A DNA stretch of 58,095 nucleotides from an uncultured Prevotellaceae bacterium (lineage in GTDB: Bacteria > Bacteroidota > Bacteroidia > Bacteroidales > Muribaculaceae), in NCBI GenBank assembly GCA_900319525.1, contig ONOU01000027.1:1-58095 (forward strand), read 5' to 3'. Below the pieces are notes generated by a model. It saw only the letters and a program-made list of their open reading frames with translations. It ran no database searches and was not told the origin of the DNA. The position numbers and the translations under genes were made by a program. This document shows positions 32,273 through 40,802 of the stretch, one piece after another. Each line of letters begins with the position of its first letter. The stretch's first letter is position 1.

Positions 32273-33220
32273 ATGGATAATTCGACTTTAGCGATAGTGG
32301 TGCCTTGCTACAACGAGGAGGAAGTGCTACCACAGACCAATGAGAGGCTGTGCTCACTGCTCGACGGCATGATGCGTGACGGACTGGCAGGACAGGGTAG
32401 CTACATCCTCTATGTCAACGACGGTTCGCGTGACAGCACATGGCAGCTCATTGAGAAATATTGCTCGATTGGCGCCCATGTGCGCGGCCTCAAGCTGGCA
32501 GGCAATGTCGGGCACCAGAACGCCCTCATGGCCGGACTGGACACAGCCCGTGCCGATGCCGACGTGACGGTCTCGATCGATGCCGACCTGCAGGACGACA
32601 TCAACGCCATCCCCGAGATGATGAAGAAATATCATGACGGTTGTGACATTGTCTATGGCGTGCGCCGCAAACGCACGACCGACACCTTCTTCAAGCGCAC
32701 CAGCGCCCAGATGTTTTACCGTTTCATGACCTCGATGGGCGTGAAGTCGGTTTATAATCATGCCGACTTCAGGCTGATGAGCCGCCGGGCTGTCGATGCC
32801 TTGTGCCAGTATGAGGAGCGCAACCTGTTCCTGCGTGGGCTGGTGCCGCTGCTGGGCTACAAGACCGATTCGGTCTATTACGACCGTCTGGAGCGTCCGG
32901 CTGGCGAGAGCAAGTACCCCCTGAGCAAGATGCTGTCGTTTGCCATCGACGGCGTCACCTCGTTCAGCGTCAAGCCATTGCGGCTGATCTTCGACATGGG
33001 GTTGATCTTCATCTTGATCAGTCTGGTGATTTTGGTTTATGTGATTGTGGCATTGTGCCAGGGCAGGGGTGTGCAAGGCTGGGCCTCACTGATGCTCTCG
33101 ATCTGGTTTGTGGGCGGATGTGTGCTCATCTGCTTGAGCATCATCGCTGCCTACATTGGCCGCATCTATACCGAGGAGAAGCATCGTCCCCGTTACAACA
33201 TTGAGAAGTATCTGAAGTAG
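32273..33220 (+). CDS. Family 2 glycosyltransferase with two C-terminal membrane helices (GtrB/DPM-like)
   Basis: 315 residues. GT-A fold: VVPCYNEEEVLP at the start, VNDGSRD, and the DXD-type SIDADLQD, plus KLAGNVGHQNALMAG. The C-terminal 85 residues hold two hydrophobic helices and a basic tail. This architecture transfers a sugar to undecaprenyl-phosphate (GtrB/DPM1 class), making a lipid-linked donor in the inner membrane. First gene of the glycan operon. Confidence 0.9.
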   Translation: MDNSTLAIVVPCYNEEEVLPQTNERLCSLLDGMMRDGLAGQGSYILYVNDGSRDSTWQLIEKYCSIGAHVRGLKLAGNVGHQNALMAGLDTARADADVTVSIDADLQDDINAIPEMMKKYHDGCDIVYGVRRKRTTDTFFKRTSAQMFYRFMTSMGVKSVYNHADFRLMSRRAVDALCQYEERNLFLRGLVPLLGYKTDSVYYDRLERPAGESKYPLSKMLSFAIDGVTSFSVKPLRLIFDMGLIFILISLVILVYVIVALCQGRGVQGWASLMLSIWFVGGCVLICLSIIAAYIGRIYTEEKHRPRYNIEKYLK

Positions 33221-33227
33221 AGAGAGT

Positions 33228-33758
33228 ATGTCCGATCAAATCAATAAAGACACTATCGTGAAGCATAACGGCATTCCCAGTCCCGGTGACATCAGGTTAT
33301 TCCTGACCGATGTGGATGGCACGCTCACCGACGGGGGCATGTACTACGGGACCGATGGCACCGAGTTCAAGAAGTTCAACACCCGTGACGGCATGGGGCT
33401 GCAGCTGCTGCAGCGCACGGGCGTGAAGGTGGGCATCGTCACCAGCGAGAACACGCCCATCAACGTGAACCGTGCCCGTAAGCTTGGCCTCGATTACCTC
33501 AAGCAGAGCGCCCGTGACGGCGGCAAGCTGGCCGCTACACGCGAGATTTGTGACGAATTGGGCATCAGCTTGGACCAGGTGGCTTACATCGGCGACGACG
33601 TCAACTGCTATGACCTGCTGGCTGCCGTGGGGTGGGCCGCTTGTCCTGCCGACGCTTGCGGCAAGGTGAAGAACATCGAGGGCATACGCATTCTGGAGCG
33701 CCGTGGCGGTGACGCTTGTGTGCGTGAATGGATCGACATGATTTTGGAAAATCAATGA
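33228..33758 (+). CDS. KdsC-type HAD phosphatase
   Basis: 176 residues. HAD motif I is DVDGTLTDGGMYYG, typical of KDO-8-phosphate/sialate-9-phosphate phosphatases. Motif II is IVTSENT; the conserved K is in LKQSARDGGK; motif IV is YIGDDVNCYDLL. No cap domain, as in the tetrameric C0 HADs. It removes phosphate from a nonulosonate phosphate, most likely KDO-8-P for lipid A core, although a kdsA/kdsB partner is not in view. Its stop overlaps the flippase start (ATGA). Confidence 0.88.
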   Translation: MSDQINKDTIVKHNGIPSPGDIRLFLTDVDGTLTDGGMYYGTDGTEFKKFNTRDGMGLQLLQRTGVKVGIVTSENTPINVNRARKLGLDYLKQSARDGGKLAATREICDELGISLDQVAYIGDDVNCYDLLAAVGWAACPADACGKVKNIEGIRILERRGGDACVREWIDMILENQ

Positions 33759-35218
33759 ATAACGAGGGTCTCGATAATCAGAATCTGAAGCAGAAAACAG
33801 CCCAAGGCTTGTTTTGGAGTTTCCTGAGCAGTGGCGGCATGCAGTTGCTCAACTTGATTATCGGCATTTTCCTGGCCCGTCTGTTGTCGCCAGGCGAATA
33901 TGGCATCGTGGGAATGCTCGCTATTTTCACACTGCTGGCCAACAACTTGCAGGAGAGCGGCTTTGGTGTGGCTCTGGTCAACATCAAGGACATCGAGCAC
34001 AGCGACTACAATGCTGTGTTCTGGTTCAATGTGGGCATGAGCCTTCTGCTCTATGCGATACTGTTTTGCTGTGCTCCGCTCATTGCCGCGTTTTTCCATC
34101 AGCCTTGCCTGGTTTCCTTGTCCCGATTTGTCTTTCTGGGCTTTATCATCGCCTCGCTGTGCATCTCACCCAATGCGATGCTGGTGAGGGGGCTCAAGAT
34201 GAAGGAGAAAGCCATCACGTCGTTGTCGGCACTGATCGTTTCGGGTACCGTGGCTGTGATCATGGCGATAAATGGCTTTTCCTATTGGAGCCTGGCGACG
34301 CAGCAGATACTATATAATGTGGTTATCTGCTTTGGCCGTTTCTATTACACGAGGTGGTGCCCGACCCTCAAGGTGGATTTCACCCCCGTGAGGCAGATGT
34401 TCTCGTTCAGTTACAAGGTGCTGATCACAGCAGTGCTGACCACAATCAACAACAATGTGCTGACGGTCATCTTCGGCCGCCTGTTTCCGGCTCAGGCCGT
34501 GGGCAACTTCACCCAGGCCAACAAGTGGAACACGATGGCCAATCAGATGGTGACCAACACCATGGCCCAGGTGGCTCAACCGGTCTTCACCCAAGTGACC
34601 GACGACAAGGAGCGGCAGCGCCGTGTCTTCGGCAAGATGTTGCGTTTCACGGCTTTTCTTGCGTTCCCGGCATTGTTCGGCCTGGCACTGGTGGCGCCAC
34701 AGGTCATCCTGCTAGCCATTGGCGACAAGTGGGTTGATAGCATCCCGTTACTGCAGATTTTGTGCATCAGCGGTGCTTTCATCCCTCTCTACACGGTTTA
34801 CCAGAACCTGTTTTTGAGTCAGGGCAAGTCAGATACCTATATGTGGCTCTCCATTGGCCAGATTGCCATTATGCTCACCGCAGTGCTTGCTTGTCATGCT
34901 ATGGGCATCAGGACAATGGTCATCGCCTTTGCCTGCATCAATATCCTGTGGTTGCTGGCATGGCAGGTCTTTGCCTATCGGCTCATTGGCTACCGCTTCT
35001 TCTCGATGCTGCGCGACCTGTTGCCATTCATGCTCATCGCGCTGGCTGTGATGGCATTGACCTATCTGGTTACGCTTCACATCAGCAACATGTTGATGTT
35101 GCTGGTTTCTCGTGTGCTCATTGCCGCAGCTCTCTATTTCATGGCGATGAAGTTGTTACGGGCGCGCATCCTTGAGGATTGCATTGAGTTTATCCGTTCC
35201 AAGAAATCTAAATCATAA
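33755..35218 (+). CDS. Polysaccharide flippase (WzxC-like, MOP superfamily)
   Basis: 487 residues from ATG 33755, which overlaps the preceding stop codon. About 12-14 transmembrane helices. The opening TAQGLFWSFLSSGGMQLLNLIIGIFLARLLSPGEYGIVGML is the diagnostic PST/WzxC pattern (key residues FW, L.RLL.P.EYG). It should flip lipid-linked glycan repeat units from cytosol to periplasm. It completes the logic of an exported glycan with the GT2 upstream and galE, licD downstream. No Wzy polymerase is in this window. Confidence 0.9.
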   Translation: MNNEGLDNQNLKQKTAQGLFWSFLSSGGMQLLNLIIGIFLARLLSPGEYGIVGMLAIFTLLANNLQESGFGVALVNIKDIEHSDYNAVFWFNVGMSLLLYAILFCCAPLIAAFFHQPCLVSLSRFVFLGFIIASLCISPNAMLVRGLKMKEKAITSLSALIVSGTVAVIMAINGFSYWSLATQQILYNVVICFGRFYYTRWCPTLKVDFTPVRQMFSFSYKVLITAVLTTINNNVLTVIFGRLFPAQAVGNFTQANKWNTMANQMVTNTMAQVAQPVFTQVTDDKERQRRVFGKMLRFTAFLAFPALFGLALVAPQVILLAIGDKWVDSIPLLQILCISGAFIPLYTVYQNLFLSQGKSDTYMWLSIGQIAIMLTAVLACHAMGIRTMVIAFACINILWLLAWQVFAYRLIGYRFFSMLRDLLPFMLIALAVMALTYLVTLHISNMLMLLVSRVLIAAALYFMAMKLLRARILEDCIEFIRSKKSKS

Positions 35219-35239: not shown

Positions 35240-36274
35240 ATGAAAGGTAAAATCTTAGTGACTGGCGGAACCGGCTTTATCGGTTCACACACCACGGTGG
35301 AGCTGCAGCAGGCAGGCTTCGAAGTGGTCATCATCGATGACCTGAGTAACAGTAACATTGAAGTGCTTGACGGCATTGAGCGCATCACGGGCATCCGCCC
35401 CGTCTTCGTCAAGGGCGATTGCACCGACCGCGCAGTGGTGCGTAAGCTGTTTGAGGACAATCCCGGCATCAGCGGCATCATCAATTTCGCGGCCAGCAAG
35501 GCTGTAGGCGAGAGCATCGAGAAGCCCATCATGTATTACCGCAACAACATTAACATCCTGCTCAACCTGCTGGAGTTGATGCCCGAGTTTGGCGTGAAGG
35601 GCTTTGTCTTCTCGTCGTCATGCACCGTCTATGGCGAGCCCGACAAGAACCCGATTACCGAGGACGCGCCCACCAAGAAGGCGACTTCGCCCTATGGAGC
35701 CACCAAGCAGATTTGCGAGGATATCATCACCGATGTCATCCGCAGCGGCAGCCCCATCAAGGCTATCCTGTTGCGTTACTTCAACCCCATTGGCGCCCAT
35801 CCCAGTGCCGAGATCGGTGAGCTGCCCAACGGTGTTCCCCAGAACCTCGTGCCCTACTTGACCCAGACCGCCATCGGCGTGCGCAAGGAACTGAGCATCT
35901 TTGGTGACGACTATCCCACACGCGACGGCTCTTGCATCCGCGACTTCATCAACGTCGTTGACCTGGCCAAGGCTCATGTCAAGGCCCTGGAGCGCATGCT
36001 CGAGGACAAGAGCGACGAGGCGCTGGAAATTTTCAACATTGGCACGGGCAATGGCGCATCGGTACTCGAGTTGCTGCATTCGTTTGAGCGCGCCACGGGC
36101 GTGAAGGTGCCTCACAAGATTGCCGCACGTCGTCCCGGTGACATCGTCCAAATTTGGGCCGACCCCAAGCGTGCCAACGAGGTCCTGGGCTGGCATGCCG
36201 AGATTTCCCTCGACGACACCATGCTCAGCGCCTGGAACTGGCAAAAACGTCTCCGCGAACGCGGCATCATGTAA
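35240..36274 (+). CDS. galE: UDP-glucose 4-epimerase
   Basis: 344 residues, extended SDR. NAD loop VTGGTGFIGSHT, catalytic Ser in SSSCTVYG, YxxxK as SPYGATK, and RYFNPIGAHPSAEIGE, which is the GalE substrate block. It interconverts UDP-Glc and UDP-Gal (or the GlcNAc forms) and provides the sugar for the operon's glycan. Confidence 0.95.
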   Translation: MKGKILVTGGTGFIGSHTTVELQQAGFEVVIIDDLSNSNIEVLDGIERITGIRPVFVKGDCTDRAVVRKLFEDNPGISGIINFAASKAVGESIEKPIMYYRNNINILLNLLELMPEFGVKGFVFSSSCTVYGEPDKNPITEDAPTKKATSPYGATKQICEDIITDVIRSGSPIKAILLRYFNPIGAHPSAEIGELPNGVPQNLVPYLTQTAIGVRKELSIFGDDYPTRDGSCIRDFINVVDLAKAHVKALERMLEDKSDEALEIFNIGTGNGASVLELLHSFERATGVKVPHKIAARRPGDIVQIWADPKRANEVLGWHAEISLDDTMLSAWNWQKRLRERGIM

Positions 36275-36291
36275 TTACACCAACAAGATAG

Positions 36292-37101
36292 ATGGCTGAT
36301 AATCCCACATTCAATCAAGAGGAACTCAGGGCTAGGTTTAACCCTGAGGGTTCGCCCTTGCGCCGCCAGCAGATGGTCATGCTGGAGATGGTTACTGTGC
36401 TTGACAAAATTTGTAAGAAGCACGATATTCCTTATTTCCTGTATGGAGGCACATTGCTTGGCGCATTTCGTCACAATGGATTCATTCCTTGGGACGACGA
36501 TTTGGATGTGGCCATGATGCGACAAGACTACAAGCGGTTGATGAAGGTGCTGCCGGCCGAATTGCCCGCGCACATCGCCTTGCAAAACAATGACACCGAC
36601 AAGAATTACTTCCTCTTTATCACCAAATTGAGGGACAAACGGTCATTCCTCGATGAAGGTAATTTTGATAAGGTGTTCAAGGAACGCGGCATCTTCATTG
36701 ACATCTTTCCGCTGGACAGGCTCTTGCCGTGGACCCAACGCCTGCGTGTGCAAAGTGTGACTTATAACATTTTCCGCAAGGGGAACGGAAGCGACTCGGC
36801 GATGAAAAAAATAAGGGCCTTGACTTGGTTTAACCGTCATGTCTCTTTCCCGCTGTTGCGAGGCATCAGTCGGCTTAGCGGAACCAAAGCCCTCATGTGC
36901 GAATACGGAATTCCGTTTCACAACATCTATGACCTGCGTGATGTTTTCCCGTTGACAACCCACGACTTCGAGGGAGTCCAACTCCCAGTCCCCGGCAATA
37001 GTCAGCACATGCTCCAAACCATGTTTGGCGACTACATGCAACTCCCCGATGACCTCGACAACGTCTACCACCACGTCGAGCGCCTCGAGTTTTACGACTA
37101 A
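36292..37101 (+). CDS. LicD-family phosphodiester transferase
   Basis: 269 residues. The LicD signature is YFLYGGTLLGAFRHNGFIPW followed by DDDLDVAMMRQDYKRL, with the metal-binding acidic cluster. The family moves phosphocholine, or another CDP-linked phospho-substituent, onto a surface glycan. It ends 20 nt before the gene encoding a LicC-like domain, so the two likely provide transfer and activation of the same decoration. Confidence 0.9.
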   Translation: MADNPTFNQEELRARFNPEGSPLRRQQMVMLEMVTVLDKICKKHDIPYFLYGGTLLGAFRHNGFIPWDDDLDVAMMRQDYKRLMKVLPAELPAHIALQNNDTDKNYFLFITKLRDKRSFLDEGNFDKVFKERGIFIDIFPLDRLLPWTQRLRVQSVTYNIFRKGNGSDSAMKKIRALTWFNRHVSFPLLRGISRLSGTKALMCEYGIPFHNIYDLRDVFPLTTHDFEGVQLPVPGNSQHMLQTMFGDYMQLPDDLDNVYHHVERLEFYD

Positions 37102-37121: not shown

Positions 37122-39962
37122 ATGCAAGCGATAATTTTAGCGGCAGGAATGGGCCGCCGGTTAGGCAAATACACCCGAGACAATACCAAGTGTATGTTAC
37201 CCGTCAACGGCGTCAGATTGATTGACAGGATGTTAGAACAGCTGTGTCAACTCAACCTGTCTCGCCTTGTCTTGGTTGTTGGATACAAAGGGAAGGAATT
37301 GAAGGATTACATCGGTGAGCGTTATGAGGACCGATTGCATATCGAGTATGCCGAGAATCCCGTCTATGACAAGACCAACAATATCTATTCCCTGGCATTG
37401 GTCAAGGACAAGATGGTTGAGGATGACACGCTGCTCATCGAGAGCGATTTGATTCTTGACGACAGCCTCTTCCAGATGATTCTTGAAGACCCGTACCCTA
37501 ATCTGGCCCTCGTCGCCAAGTATGAGACCTGGATGGATGGTACGATGGTGCGTATCGACAAGGATAACAACATCGTCAACTTTGTGCCCAAGAAGGCTTT
37601 CAAGTATTCCGAGGTAGATTCCTACTATAAAACGGTGAATATCTATAAGTTCAGCAAGGAGTTCTCCAACAAGGTCTATGTGCCGTTCCTGGATGCTTAT
37701 TGCAAGGTGATGGGCAATAATGAGTATTACGAGCAGGTCTTGCGTGTGATCACCTTGCTGGATCAGGCCAATCTCAAAGCGTTGCCCATCGGTGACAAGC
37801 CGTGGTACGAAATAGATGACGTGCAGGACAAGGATATTGCCGAGGCCATTTTCTCTCCCGAGAAGGATCGCCTGCATAAGTATCATGTGAGGTACGGCGG
37901 GTATTGGCGTTTCCCCAAAATGCTGGATTTCTGTTATCTGGTCAATCCGTTTTTCCCACCTAAACGAATGCGTGACGAGATGCGTGCAAACTTTGACCAA
38001 CTCTTGACACAGTATCCCAGTGGCATGGCGGTCAATTCGTTGTTAGCTGGAAAATATTTTGGGGTCAGCAGCCAGTATATTATCGTGGGCAATGGTGCTG
38101 CCGAACTGATTAAGAGCCTGATGGAACAGTTCATTCAGGAAGACAGTAAGGTGGGTGTCGTGTATCCGACCTTTGAGGAGTATCCACATCGCCTAAAACA
38201 GGAATCCATTGTGCCGTTCTATCCTGAACTGCCCGATCTGCATTATTCAGCCGCTGATTTAAAAGCATTTTACGCTTCCCGGGATATCACGGCATTGCTG
38301 CTCATCAATCCTGACAACCCTTCGGGAAACTTCATTCCCAAAGAAGATGTACTCTCTCTCGCTGCATGGTGTGGCGAGCGTGGTGTGAGGCTGATTGTAG
38401 ACGAGTCGTTTGTGGACTTTTCCGACGAGGGTCCGGCTAATTCGTTGCTCAACGATGATATCCTTGAGCAATATCCGGGCCTGTTGGTTATGAAGAGCAT
38501 CAGCAAGTCTTATGGTGTTCCTGGCCTTCGATTGGGCGTCTTGGCAGGTGCCGATACCGCTTTGCTGGATAAAATGAAAAAGGATGTGGCTATCTGGAAC
38601 ATCAACTCGTTCGCCGAGTTCTACATGCAAATCTTTAACAAGTATGAATTCTTCTATAAGAATGCTTGTGCCAGCTTTGTGGAAGAACGTAGCCGTTTTG
38701 CCGAGCAGCTATCATCAATCCCGTATCTTCGTGTCATTCCTTCACAGGCCAATTACTTCCTGTGCCAAGTGACGAAACATTACACTTCTAGACAGCTGAC
38801 TGAAAAACTGCTGAATGATTTCAACATCCTTATCAAGGATTGTGATAACAAGACCGGACTTGAAGGGAAGAACTATATCCGTTTAGCAATACGCGATAAA
38901 GAAGATAATGACAACCTCGTTAATGCATTAAACAGTCTCAGAGGCTTAAATATCTGTATCTGTGGTGGTGGCAATCTCGGGCATGTGATGGCCGGTTATC
39001 TTTCTGCTCAAGGCATTCATCGGGTGAATGTGTTGACTGGCCATCCCGAGAAATGGTCTACTTCATTGACGATTAATGTGAACAATTCAAGTGGTAACGA
39101 GACTTTGAAAGGTGAACTGAACATGGTTACATCTAGCGCCGAACAGGTGATTCCCGATGCCGACCTGGTATTTATCTGTTTGCCTGGCCCCCACATCAAG
39201 CCCATGCTCGAGAAGATTAGACCCCACTTGAAGAAGAATACTATTGTAGGTAGTATCGTTTCTAATACTGGTTTCTTCTTCCATGCCCATGAGGTGATCT
39301 CTTCACAGCCCATTTTCGGTTTTCAGCGTGTCCCGTTCATTTCGAGAATTGTTGAGTACGGCAAAGAGGCCGACCTCTTGGGCTCAAAAAGGTCGCTCAG
39401 CGTGTGTGTTGAGAATGGCAATGGCAATGCAATACGCATGATGATAGAGAACTTGCTGCACACGCCTGTAAAGTTGTTGGGGAATTTCTATGAGGTGAGT
39501 TTGTCAAATAGCAATCCTCTGTTGCACCCTGCAAGACTGTATACCATGTGGAAAAACTGGAACCCGGCAGTGAAGTATGATAGGATTCCCATGTTTTATG
39601 CCGAATGGGACGATACTGCTTCCCAGTTGCTCATTGATATGGATAATGAGTTGCAGTCATTGCTGAGGTTGTTGCCGGTTGAGCCTAATAGTGTGCCGTC
39701 TATATTGGAATACTATGAATCGGTTGATGCTTCAACATTAACTCAAAAGATTCGCTCCATACCGGCATTCAAATCAATCAAGTCCCCAATGATTGAAAAC
39801 GAAGGCGATGGCTATATCCCTGATCTGAATAGCCGTTATTTTATCGAGGACTTTGAATGTGGAACGTTCTATATCCGGGATACTGCACGATTAAAAGGCG
39901 TTGACACGCCAGCCATTAACCGGGTGTGTGATTGGTATGAAAGCCTCAAGGCCTATAAATGA
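37122..39962 (+). CDS. Triple-domain enzyme: nucleotidyltransferase, CobD-like PLP enzyme and opine-dehydrogenase-like domain
   Basis: 946 residues in one uninterrupted frame. Domain 1 (about 1-240): LicC-like sugar/choline-phosphate nucleotidyltransferase, LAAGMGRRLGKYT...TKCMLPV, with IESDLILD. Domain 2 (about 265-605): fold-type I PLP enzyme closest in pattern to HisC/CobD, with NPDNPSG (396-402), VDESFVDF (426-433), Schiff-base Lys462 in SISKSYGVPGLRLG, and RLAIRD. Domain 3 (about 608-946): Rossmann loop ICICGGGNLG (G615-620), VFICLPG, then a helical domain ordered as in octopine/nopaline-type dehydrogenases. It is cytosolic. Following licD, it plausibly makes a CDP-activated, N-substituted amino-alcohol phosphate (or aminophosphonate). 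The individual folds are solid; the product is inference. Confidence 0.82.
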   Translation: MQAIILAAGMGRRLGKYTRDNTKCMLPVNGVRLIDRMLEQLCQLNLSRLVLVVGYKGKELKDYIGERYEDRLHIEYAENPVYDKTNNIYSLALVKDKMVEDDTLLIESDLILDDSLFQMILEDPYPNLALVAKYETWMDGTMVRIDKDNNIVNFVPKKAFKYSEVDSYYKTVNIYKFSKEFSNKVYVPFLDAYCKVMGNNEYYEQVLRVITLLDQANLKALPIGDKPWYEIDDVQDKDIAEAIFSPEKDRLHKYHVRYGGYWRFPKMLDFCYLVNPFFPPKRMRDEMRANFDQLLTQYPSGMAVNSLLAGKYFGVSSQYIIVGNGAAELIKSLMEQFIQEDSKVGVVYPTFEEYPHRLKQESIVPFYPELPDLHYSAADLKAFYASRDITALLLINPDNPSGNFIPKEDVLSLAAWCGERGVRLIVDESFVDFSDEGPANSLLNDDILEQYPGLLVMKSISKSYGVPGLRLGVLAGADTALLDKMKKDVAIWNINSFAEFYMQIFNKYEFFYKNACASFVEERSRFAEQLSSIPYLRVIPSQANYFLCQVTKHYTSRQLTEKLLNDFNILIKDCDNKTGLEGKNYIRLAIRDKEDNDNLVNALNSLRGLNICICGGGNLGHVMAGYLSAQGIHRVNVLTGHPEKWSTSLTINVNNSSGNETLKGELNMVTSSAEQVIPDADLVFICLPGPHIKPMLEKIRPHLKKNTIVGSIVSNTGFFFHAHEVISSQPIFGFQRVPFISRIVEYGKEADLLGSKRSLSVCVENGNGNAIRMMIENLLHTPVKLLGNFYEVSLSNSNPLLHPARLYTMWKNWNPAVKYDRIPMFYAEWDDTASQLLIDMDNELQSLLRLLPVEPNSVPSILEYYESVDASTLTQKIRSIPAFKSIKSPMIENEGDGYIPDLNSRYFIEDFECGTFYIRDTARLKGVDTPAINRVCDWYESLKAYK

Positions 39963-40051: not shown

Positions 40052-40633
40052 TTATGCCTCTGCGGCGGGAGCCTCTTCGGCAGCGGGAGCCTCCTCGGCG
40101 GGAGCCTCAGCGGCCTCAGCCTCTTGAGCAGCCTTTGCAGCCTCAGCCTCGGCAGCAGCTTTAGCGGCAGCGATCTCGGCTTTCTTCTTGGCTACGGCCT
40201 CGGCCTTTGCCTCGTTCTTCTTGGACTCCTCGGCGATGGCTTTCTTGTAATCGGCCTTCTTGTCGTCGCGCTCCTTGTTACGGATTGCGTCGAGCTTAGC
40301 CTGCTTCTCGGCCTTCCAGGCCTCGAAACGCTTCTGAGCCTCTTCCTCGGTGAAAGCGCCCTTCTTGACGCCGCCCTGGAGGTGCTTCATCAGCATCACG
40401 CCCTCGCGAGAGAGAATGTTACGTACAGTGTCGGTGGGAATTGCACCTACGTTGATCCAATAGAGTGCACGCTCGAAATTCAAACTGATGGTAGCAGGAT
40501 TAGTGTTGGGGTTATAAGAACCAATCCTCTCAATAAATCTACCATCTCGTGGTGCCCTGCTATCGGCAATAACAATGGGATAGAACGCATAGTCCTTGTG
40601 ACCGTGGCGCTGCAATCTGATCTTTGTTGCCAT
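40052..40633 (-). CDS. rpsP: 30S ribosomal protein S16 with long C-terminal extension
   Basis: 193 residues from ATG 40633; the frame runs on upstream through tRNA-Gln and is not coding there. S16 core: [63 protein letters not shown]. After residue 90 comes an about 100-residue Lys/Ala/Glu-rich low-complexity tail, ending in repeats of [16 protein letters not shown] type. Extended S16 tails are usual in Bacteroidales. It is a component of the small subunit. Confidence 0.96.
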
Positions 40634-40678
40634 AATAAAACAGTTTAAATTTTTAAATGTTACTAATTTATTCTCATA

Positions 40679-40709
40679 AAAAAAGTGACCTTGTTTAAGG
40701 GTCACTTCT
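40679..40709 (-). terminator. Terminator of tRNA-Gln
   Basis: On the minus strand AAGTGACC-loop-GGTCACTT followed by a T-run. Confidence 0.85.
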
Positions 40710-40714
40710 CTTTG

Positions 40715-40785
40715 TTGTCCTGGAAGGATTCGAACCCTCGCAAGCGGAACCAGAATCCGATGTGCTACCATTACACCACAGGACA
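40715..40785 (-). tRNA. tRNA-Gln (anticodon CTG)
   Basis: Acceptor TGTCCTG/CAGGACA, anticodon loop TTCTGGT, T-arm GAGGGTTCGAATCCTTC, discriminator A. It starts with U, as tRNA-Gln often does. Confidence 0.94.
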
Positions 40786-40802
40786 ATTCCTAATTGCGAC
40801 TG

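Follow-up and report, generated by a model that had tools for sequence, protein, structure and literature searches.

In the Lic-1 pathway, which places phosphocholine on teichoic acids and lipooligosaccharide (LOS), choline is taken up and phosphorylated by a kinase, the small amino-alcohol phosphate is activated with CTP (LicC), and a LicD-family enzyme transfers it to the glycan. A similar layout is found in PntC-AEPT (structures 6pd1 and 6pd2), where an N-terminal LicC-like cytidylyltransferase is fused to a pyridoxal-phosphate (PLP) enzyme that makes the aminated substrate. Opine chemistry is known from invertebrate muscle, crown-gall tumours and metallophores. Here we describe a gene in a stretch of 58,095 nucleotides from an uncultured Prevotellaceae bacterium (contig ONOU01000027.1, called the window below), in which a LicC/PntC-like cytidylyltransferase, a CobD-like PLP enzyme and an octopine-dehydrogenase-type reductase (ODH) are fused in this order, next to a licD gene. 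Computation found the three domains with intact active sites and a link with LicD, and among relatives a repeated, nearly always exclusive exchange of the ODH, at the domain border, for an enzyme of the OCD/mu-crystallin family (OCD). All parts come from families already known, and the scheme as a whole varies Lic/Pnt-type CDP activation. What is new is the exchangeable reductase slot, the triple fusion being a local variant. Among the matches listed in the open-licence literature, no publication linked opine dehydrogenases to such a headgroup or described such a slot.

The fusion is an intact frame of 946 amino acids (aa) at 37122-39962 of the forward strand, with an ATG start and no internal stops. 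It begins 20 nt after the end of licD (37101), and its product carries LAAGMGRRLG at residues 6-15, Lys462 within SISKSYGVPGLRLG and GGGNLG at residues 615-620, all where the initial annotation had placed them. The family expected for each third was also recovered by Pfam above its gathering score, with NTP_transf_3 at residues 3-123, Aminotran_1_2 at 289-603 (121.9 bits) and Octopine_DH at 787-941. The same triple frame is present in eight other loci (L033-L040; 78-98% identical). Because it recurs in this way, the fusion is not a one-off assembly error.

Domains 1 and 2 by themselves form a bifunctional protein of Bacteroidales, and the position that follows it is the slot. We compared 92 rows: the window, 11 loci from a sample of the order and, out of 173 loci in titled genome records, the best 80; these last had been found with six peptide patterns, two of them within the ODH domain. 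The slot, fused or directly following, contained ODH in 49 rows, OCD in 25 and neither in 15, and three were unassigned (two at contig ends, and L082 with both reductases). In the less biased order sample, where the slot was seen in 13 genomes, four had ODH, three had OCD and six had neither; two of these six carried an ODH homologue elsewhere. At the level of 31 chosen genomes (the own genome and 30 others), 23 had ODH, eight had OCD and none had both. When ODH was a separate gene, its start overlapped the stop of the upstream gene by 4 nt in 31 of 39 cases (L067, an early-starting frame, was left out).

The exchange is most visible in one syntenic group, which comprises all loci where the triple fusion was seen (the window and L033-L040) and also L043-L047, in which the bifunctional gene is accompanied by a convergent OCD gene instead of the fused ODH. 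On one flank, L033-L038 and L040 match window genes that we read from their translations as yicC and gmk, with no match on that side in L039; on the opposite flank a bS16-like frame was found in L033, L035, L036 and L038-L040, the stretches of L034 and L037 ending there. Compared in pairs by blastn (word size 11, plus strand), the loci were 76-84% identical in licD and the bifunctional part, and the similarity ended within the last 26 codons of the latter. There was no match over the reductase, and similarity returned near the bS16-like gene at 92-98% in blocks longer than 400 nt. In the window, the putative bS16 gene (read from sequence; 40052-40786, reverse strand) has a long Ala/Glu/Lys-rich C-terminal extension and marks the outer border of the exchanged cassette.

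On a tree of the bifunctional part, 16 changes between ODH and OCD were counted over 74 rows, and four when only the 14 syntenic rows were used. With three states there were 25 changes against a shuffled mean of 35.0, and none of 200 shuffles was that low; with two states, 200 shuffles averaged 21.0 changes and went no lower than 16, the observed number. If each state is counted against the two others, the starred branches alone require at least 14 changes for ODH and at least 15 for OCD. The slot states are somewhat clustered, being inherited for a while, yet they have changed many times. We also looked for residues of the partner enzymes that follow the swap in the syntenic loci. LicD had one column separating ODH from OCD loci among 14 loci, and 53 of 2002 label sets do equally well; the bifunctional part (14 loci) and Wzx and GalE (13 loci) had no residue tracking the state. 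Such near-insensitivity of the partners fits like products of the two reductases and is not firm on stereochemistry. The slot is thereby a natural experiment: at a single position, two enzymes that are not homologous have taken each other's place again and again.

Domain 3 reached 103.8 bits with PF02317 against a gathering score of 30 and 34.5 bits with an ApbA-type Rossmann model (22.2), and could be aligned over its full length with octopine dehydrogenase (OcDH; 3c7a, 108.5 bits). The C-terminal third, for which a place outside the opine/6-phosphogluconate-type dehydrogenases would have spoken against the initial annotation, is of the opine-dehydrogenase type. Like OcDH and N-(1-D-carboxylethyl)-L-norvaline dehydrogenase (1bg6), it combines a Rossmann part and PF02317 with a His/Arg/Asp active site: H802, R905 and D910 align with OcDH H212, R324 and D329, of which we take H212 and D329 to be catalytic and R324 to bind the keto acid, and they are conserved in 52 of 52 ODH sequences (window included). 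The amine pocket is Gln-Arg here and Glu-Thr in OcDH, and OcDH is not fused to headgroup enzymes beside a surface-glycan cluster. The Arg of this pair, R736, is invariant in the same 52 sequences and stands at the position of OcDH Thr143. Given the role that we presume for Thr143 in OcDH, this replacement would suit an anionic amine. Domain 3 is predicted to condense an amine with an alpha-keto acid reductively.

The OCD slot protein has no sequence relation to ODH. Among solved structures it comes closest to SbnB, pyrroline-carboxylate reductase, alanine dehydrogenase and mu-crystallin, at about 13-22% identity to solved members of the family, and its model (mean predicted local distance difference test score, pLDDT, 81.9) had SbnB with alpha-ketoglutarate as the top Foldseek row. 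K70, R109, H224 and D232 are conserved in 26 of 26 sequences, K70 and R109 being presumably the active-site Lys and Arg of the family. Known opine dehydrogenases occur in both the ODH and the OCD families, which have in common a hydride transfer to a C=N bond adjoining a carboxylate. Taurine, whose N-(1-carboxyethyl) derivative is tauropine, is similar to phosphoethanolamine in both size and charge. Opine-type C-N chemistry is represented in the OCD family by SbnB, the mu-crystallin ketimine reductase and sponge tauropine dehydrogenase, the last described in the available passages of two papers (PMC3840593, PMC4113996). The OCD reductase probably carries out chemistry equivalent to that of ODH. 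That the two replace each other repeatedly, at one border and next to unchanged headgroup enzymes, is best accounted for if they share one job, the reductive N-carboxyalkylation of the amino-alcohol phosphate.

We consider it likely that the fusion assembles, in three steps, an opine-type headgroup on an amino-alcohol phosphate, which LicD then attaches. The route given here is our proposal as regards every substrate, the keto acid, whether the reductase acts before the cytidylyl step, what the product is and which glycan receives it. Domain 2 would form phosphoethanolamine by decarboxylating an O-phospho-amino acid, for which O-phospho-L-serine is the likeliest. Domain 3 would condense the free amine with an alpha-keto acid, pyruvate being the likeliest, and use NAD(P)H to reduce the imine; the resulting N-(1-carboxyalkyl)phosphoethanolamine would be activated with CTP by domain 1 to its CDP form. 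The adjacent LicD would then transfer the headgroup to a lipid-linked glycan made by this cluster, either before the Wzx flippase exports the glycan or while it does so. Relatives would leave the reduction to a separate gene product encoded directly after the bifunctional protein, or to the non-homologous OCD enzyme with equivalent chemistry. The predicted route differs from Lic-1, with its choline uptake and kinase, in that the headgroup would be made de novo by the fused PLP enzyme and its nitrogen carboxyalkylated by the reductase. The domain calls of the initial annotation, its link with LicD and its proposed chain (a CDP-amino-alcohol, opine-type N-alkylation and transfer by LicD) are supported by independent comparisons; for the product, the keto acid and the amino-alcohol we still rely on inference.

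N-(1-carboxyalkyl)ethanolamine phosphate is a substituent of Proteus O-antigens, and we know of no gene assigned to it. The product type put forward in the initial annotation has a precedent: N-[(R)-1-carboxyethyl]ethanolamine phosphate is spelled out for Proteus/Klebsiella O-polysaccharides in a figure legend of a review (PMC9630907). If our reading is right, the fusion is, to our knowledge, the first concrete enzyme candidate for this substituent, and it would bring opine chemistry into CDP-activated glycan decoration. A pyruvate-derived carboxyalkyl headgroup would add an exact mass of +195.030 Da, which is testable in cultured gut bacteria. As a tentative extension, and one that we hold rather doubtful, the slot may be an interchangeable tailoring position for surface phospho-headgroups of gut Bacteroidales, in which recombination at a fixed border swaps two opine dehydrogenases of unrelated origin, whose stereochemistry may be opposite or whose keto acids may differ, with none as the third state. 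This would amount to a chirality or side-chain switch on glycans and to a repertoire of N-carboxyalkyl phosphoethanolamine epitopes.

Domain 1 has LicC (1jyk) and PntC-AEPT (6pd1) as its closest solved structures. We take an N-terminal Gly-rich/Arg motif with a Lys to be the cytidylyltransferase signature, and domain 1 has it; R13, K23, E107 and D109 are kept in all 92 rows (window included). Support for the first two domains as makers of a CDP-amino-alcohol also came from a wider set of relatives. Of the 393 genomes sampled in the order, 23 had a match at E <=1e-50, of three kinds: 13 had the bifunctional cytidylyltransferase-PLP protein (one fused to ODH, one split), nine a distant pair of separate genes, and one a PLP relative alone. 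In all nine distant pairs the next gene, on the same strand, is a CDP-alcohol phosphatidyltransferase homologue (Pfam confirmed the two that were submitted). In one such operon the PLP partner was closest to 6oux (155.2 bits, against 98.1 for CobD) and the cytidylyltransferase to LicC. Because the distant pairs adjoin a CDP-alcohol phosphotransferase homologue, as the logic of the CDP-ethanolamine branch would have it, they provide independent support for this function.

The link with LicD was measured in the same order sample. LicD was present in 11 of the 13 genomes with the bifunctional or fused protein, compared with 43 of the remaining 380 (Fisher p 8e-9); six of the 13 have it close to the bifunctional gene, on one contig. 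It was also found in 29 of 30 genomes examined at the genome level, and in the own genome (3.28 Mb, 94.5% complete) a single LicD gene was found, at the window locus, whose product is predicted to transfer the CDP-linked amino-alcohol phosphate to the glycan. The triple architecture put forward in the initial annotation does recur; it is a local form of the more widespread bifunctional protein.

Several observations weigh against the reading that we prefer. The predicted helical part of domain 3 has low confidence (pLDDT <50 at 736-756 and 781-831), and no opine dehydrogenase was among the 50 matches listed by Foldseek for the full model, which we put down to the poor modelling of this part; because of both, the fold assignment of domain 3 rests on sequence. 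For domain 2, the score with the CobD model TIGR01140 (199.2 bits) is under the equivalog cut-off of 290.55. We therefore call it CobD-like, not CobD, and it may instead catalyse a transaminase reaction; Foldseek places CobD slightly above 6oux. The slot counts over-represent ODH, because two of the six patterns were drawn from it and of the 173 loci the best 80 were used. The slot tree was built by a quick method; 37 of its 87 inner branches are starred, and many of the rest are weak. L082 (359-4374) is the sole locus seen with both reductases, the bifunctional gene being followed by OCD and then by a divergent ODH. Two of the 13 order-sample genomes have no LicD match and five have PF04991 matches on other contigs only, although in one of these five (G286) a weak LicD-like gene adjoins the bifunctional gene. 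Finally, a LicD relative was found in 59 of 80 loci, and none was found in the stretch covered for the other 21, some of which are on short contigs.

The alternatives concern mainly domain 2 and the target of the reductase. By sequence, 6oux (154.5 bits) is the closest solved structure of domain 2, followed by CobD (1lc5, 119.4 bits) and a protein named HisC. The title of 6oux names SMUL_1544, a decarboxylase of Sulfurospirillum multivorans, which we take to be the serine-phosphate decarboxylase (substrate L-serine-O-phosphate) of norcobamide synthesis. K462 is kept in 91 of 92 rows and R587 and R591 in 90 of 92 (bifunctional or fused proteins, window included). Domain 2, judged by these relatives, is probably an O-phosphoserine decarboxylase. 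Campylobacter Cj1436 is reportedly a phosphoserine decarboxylase as well; we found no text on its activity. A variant of the pathway with the same core would start from O-phosphothreonine, as canonical CobD does, and pass through (R)-1-aminopropan-2-ol phosphate to N-carboxyalkyl-aminopropanol phosphate. The highest-scoring named family model for domain 2 is indeed threonine-phosphate decarboxylase, and the Foldseek order of CobD and 6oux also favours this variant. It is nevertheless unlikely in our view, because 6oux ranks above CobD by sequence both for domain 2 and for the PLP partner of the one distant operon tested. O-phosphoserine is a universal intermediate, and O-phosphothreonine requires a dedicated kinase.

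CobD and SMUL_1544, with which domain 2 shares its predicted chemistry, serve cobamide synthesis, whereas in the own genome another gene fits that role. A second CobD-like protein (227 bits with the CobD model, likewise under the cut-off) is encoded between genes that we read from their translations as cobQ and cbiB. A cobalamin role for domain 2 was rejected on this account, since with a separate CobD-like gene in such a context domain 2 is dispensable for cobalamin.

The reductases might instead act on another molecule, for example to supply an amino acid or decorate a sugar, and merely accompany the headgroup genes. Alanine dehydrogenase is among the proteins of OCD fold, the OCD gene is convergent in L043-L047, and two genomes have an ODH homologue away from the bifunctional gene. 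Against these points stand the fusion of ODH to the headgroup enzyme in nine loci, the 4-nt overlap of most separate ODH genes, the near-exclusivity and the exchange at the domain border, and the invariant Arg at OcDH Thr143, which suits an anionic amine. We regard a different target as somewhat less probable than the aminopropanol variant. Slightly less probable again is that domain 2 is a transaminase, making an amino-alcohol phosphate such as serinol phosphate from a keto-phosphate, the amine of which the reductase would N-alkylate. Domain 2 matches HisC-type transaminases besides scoring under the CobD cut-off, and PntC-AEPT (PMC6697681) joins a cytidylyltransferase to a transaminase in a similar layout. 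Of the solved structures nearest to domain 2, however, the first two are named decarboxylases, HisC being third, and domain 2 is an aminotransferase of class I/II whereas AEPT is of class V.

The least probable alternative, and a very improbable one, follows the aminophosphonate route that the initial annotation had itself listed: the headgroup would be CMP-2-aminoethylphosphonate, with the 2-aminoethylphosphonate (2-AEP) modified by the reductase. In its favour, PntC-AEPT is the closest two-domain structure; it differs from the fusion in having a transaminase that acts on a phosphonate and no third, reductase domain. Against it, domain 2 is outside the AEP transaminase class, and phosphoenolpyruvate (PEP) mutase above the cut-off was found neither in the own genome nor in any of 30 relatives (one 18.8-bit fragment), in a search covering PEP mutase, and not ppd or the B. 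fragilis aep genes, that lacked a positive control, 14 control genomes having none either. This route was set aside for want of PEP mutase. PEP mutase in all genomes with the fusion, which would have spoken against the initial annotation, was likewise not observed in this search.

In the preferred assembly route, the acceptor would be a glycan of the cluster formed by the neighbouring genes (Table 1). The flippase is related to the O-glycosylation flippase family NF058658, scoring 650 bits, under the cut-off of 720. The protein O-glycan of P. gingivalis carries nearly stoichiometric glycerol phosphate (PMC8729774), which shows that substituents linked by a phosphodiester occur on glycans of this kind in the phylum. 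The accessible portions of a paper on Prevotella intermedia glycan (PMC10897501) held nothing relevant beyond one term match in the reference list, and those of PMC9246714 (Bacteroides inositol lipids), PMC10434233 (phosphocholine genes) and PMC10609480 (bacterial glycan side chains) held nothing on the fusion enzyme.

Table 1. Positions of the fusion domains and of the other genes of the cluster in the window.
Feature	Position (strand)	Protein	Profile match
GT2 glycosyltransferase	32273..33220 (+)		PF00535, 90 bits
KdsC/KDN-9-P-phosphatase-like HAD phosphatase	33228..33758 (+)		TIGR01670, 119 bits, above cut-off
Wzx/MOP flippase (upstream)	33728..35218 (+)		PF13440, 252.8 bits
galE-type epimerase	35240..36274 (+)		TIGR01179, 397 bits, above cut-off
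licD-family phosphotransferase	36292..37101 (+)	269 aa	PF04991, 145.7 bits (cut-off 22.6)
Domain 1, LicC/PntC-like cytidylyltransferase	37122..37880 (+)	residues 1-253	PF12804, 41.9 bits (threshold 27)
Domain 2, CobD-like fold-type I PLP enzyme	37887..38939 (+)	residues 256-606; Lys462 codon 38505-38507	
Domain 3, octopine-dehydrogenase-type NAD(P)H reductase	38940..39962 (+)	residues 607-946	PF02317, 103.8 bits

Some related arrangements were seen outside this cluster. In nine genomes (L017-L025; e.g. L128:6355-8936) LicC-like, CobD-like and CDP-alcohol phosphatidyltransferase-like genes stand in a row, and they may make up a de novo CDP-ethanolamine pathway leading to phosphoethanolamine lipids, such as the ceramide form, in the phylum. 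A CobD-like PLP gene at L131:5939-8902 lies between glutamine-synthetase-like and peptidase-C26/glutamine amidotransferase-like genes, a different pathway context.

Additional ODH relatives were also present. L049 (15226-16428), L059 (3311-4513) and L061 (3294-4502) have an extra ODH-family gene of about 400 aa several kb away, at about 115 bits to the window ODH. Homologues away from any bifunctional gene, which sits on another contig, were found at L123:7499-8506 (344 bits), beside a glycoside-hydrolase-2 gene, and at L124:5165-6214 (281 bits), beside a GTPase gene. At L135:7493-10453 (genome G266), the three activities are encoded by separate adjacent frames of 329, 319 and 336 aa, as a result of natural fission or of frameshifts.

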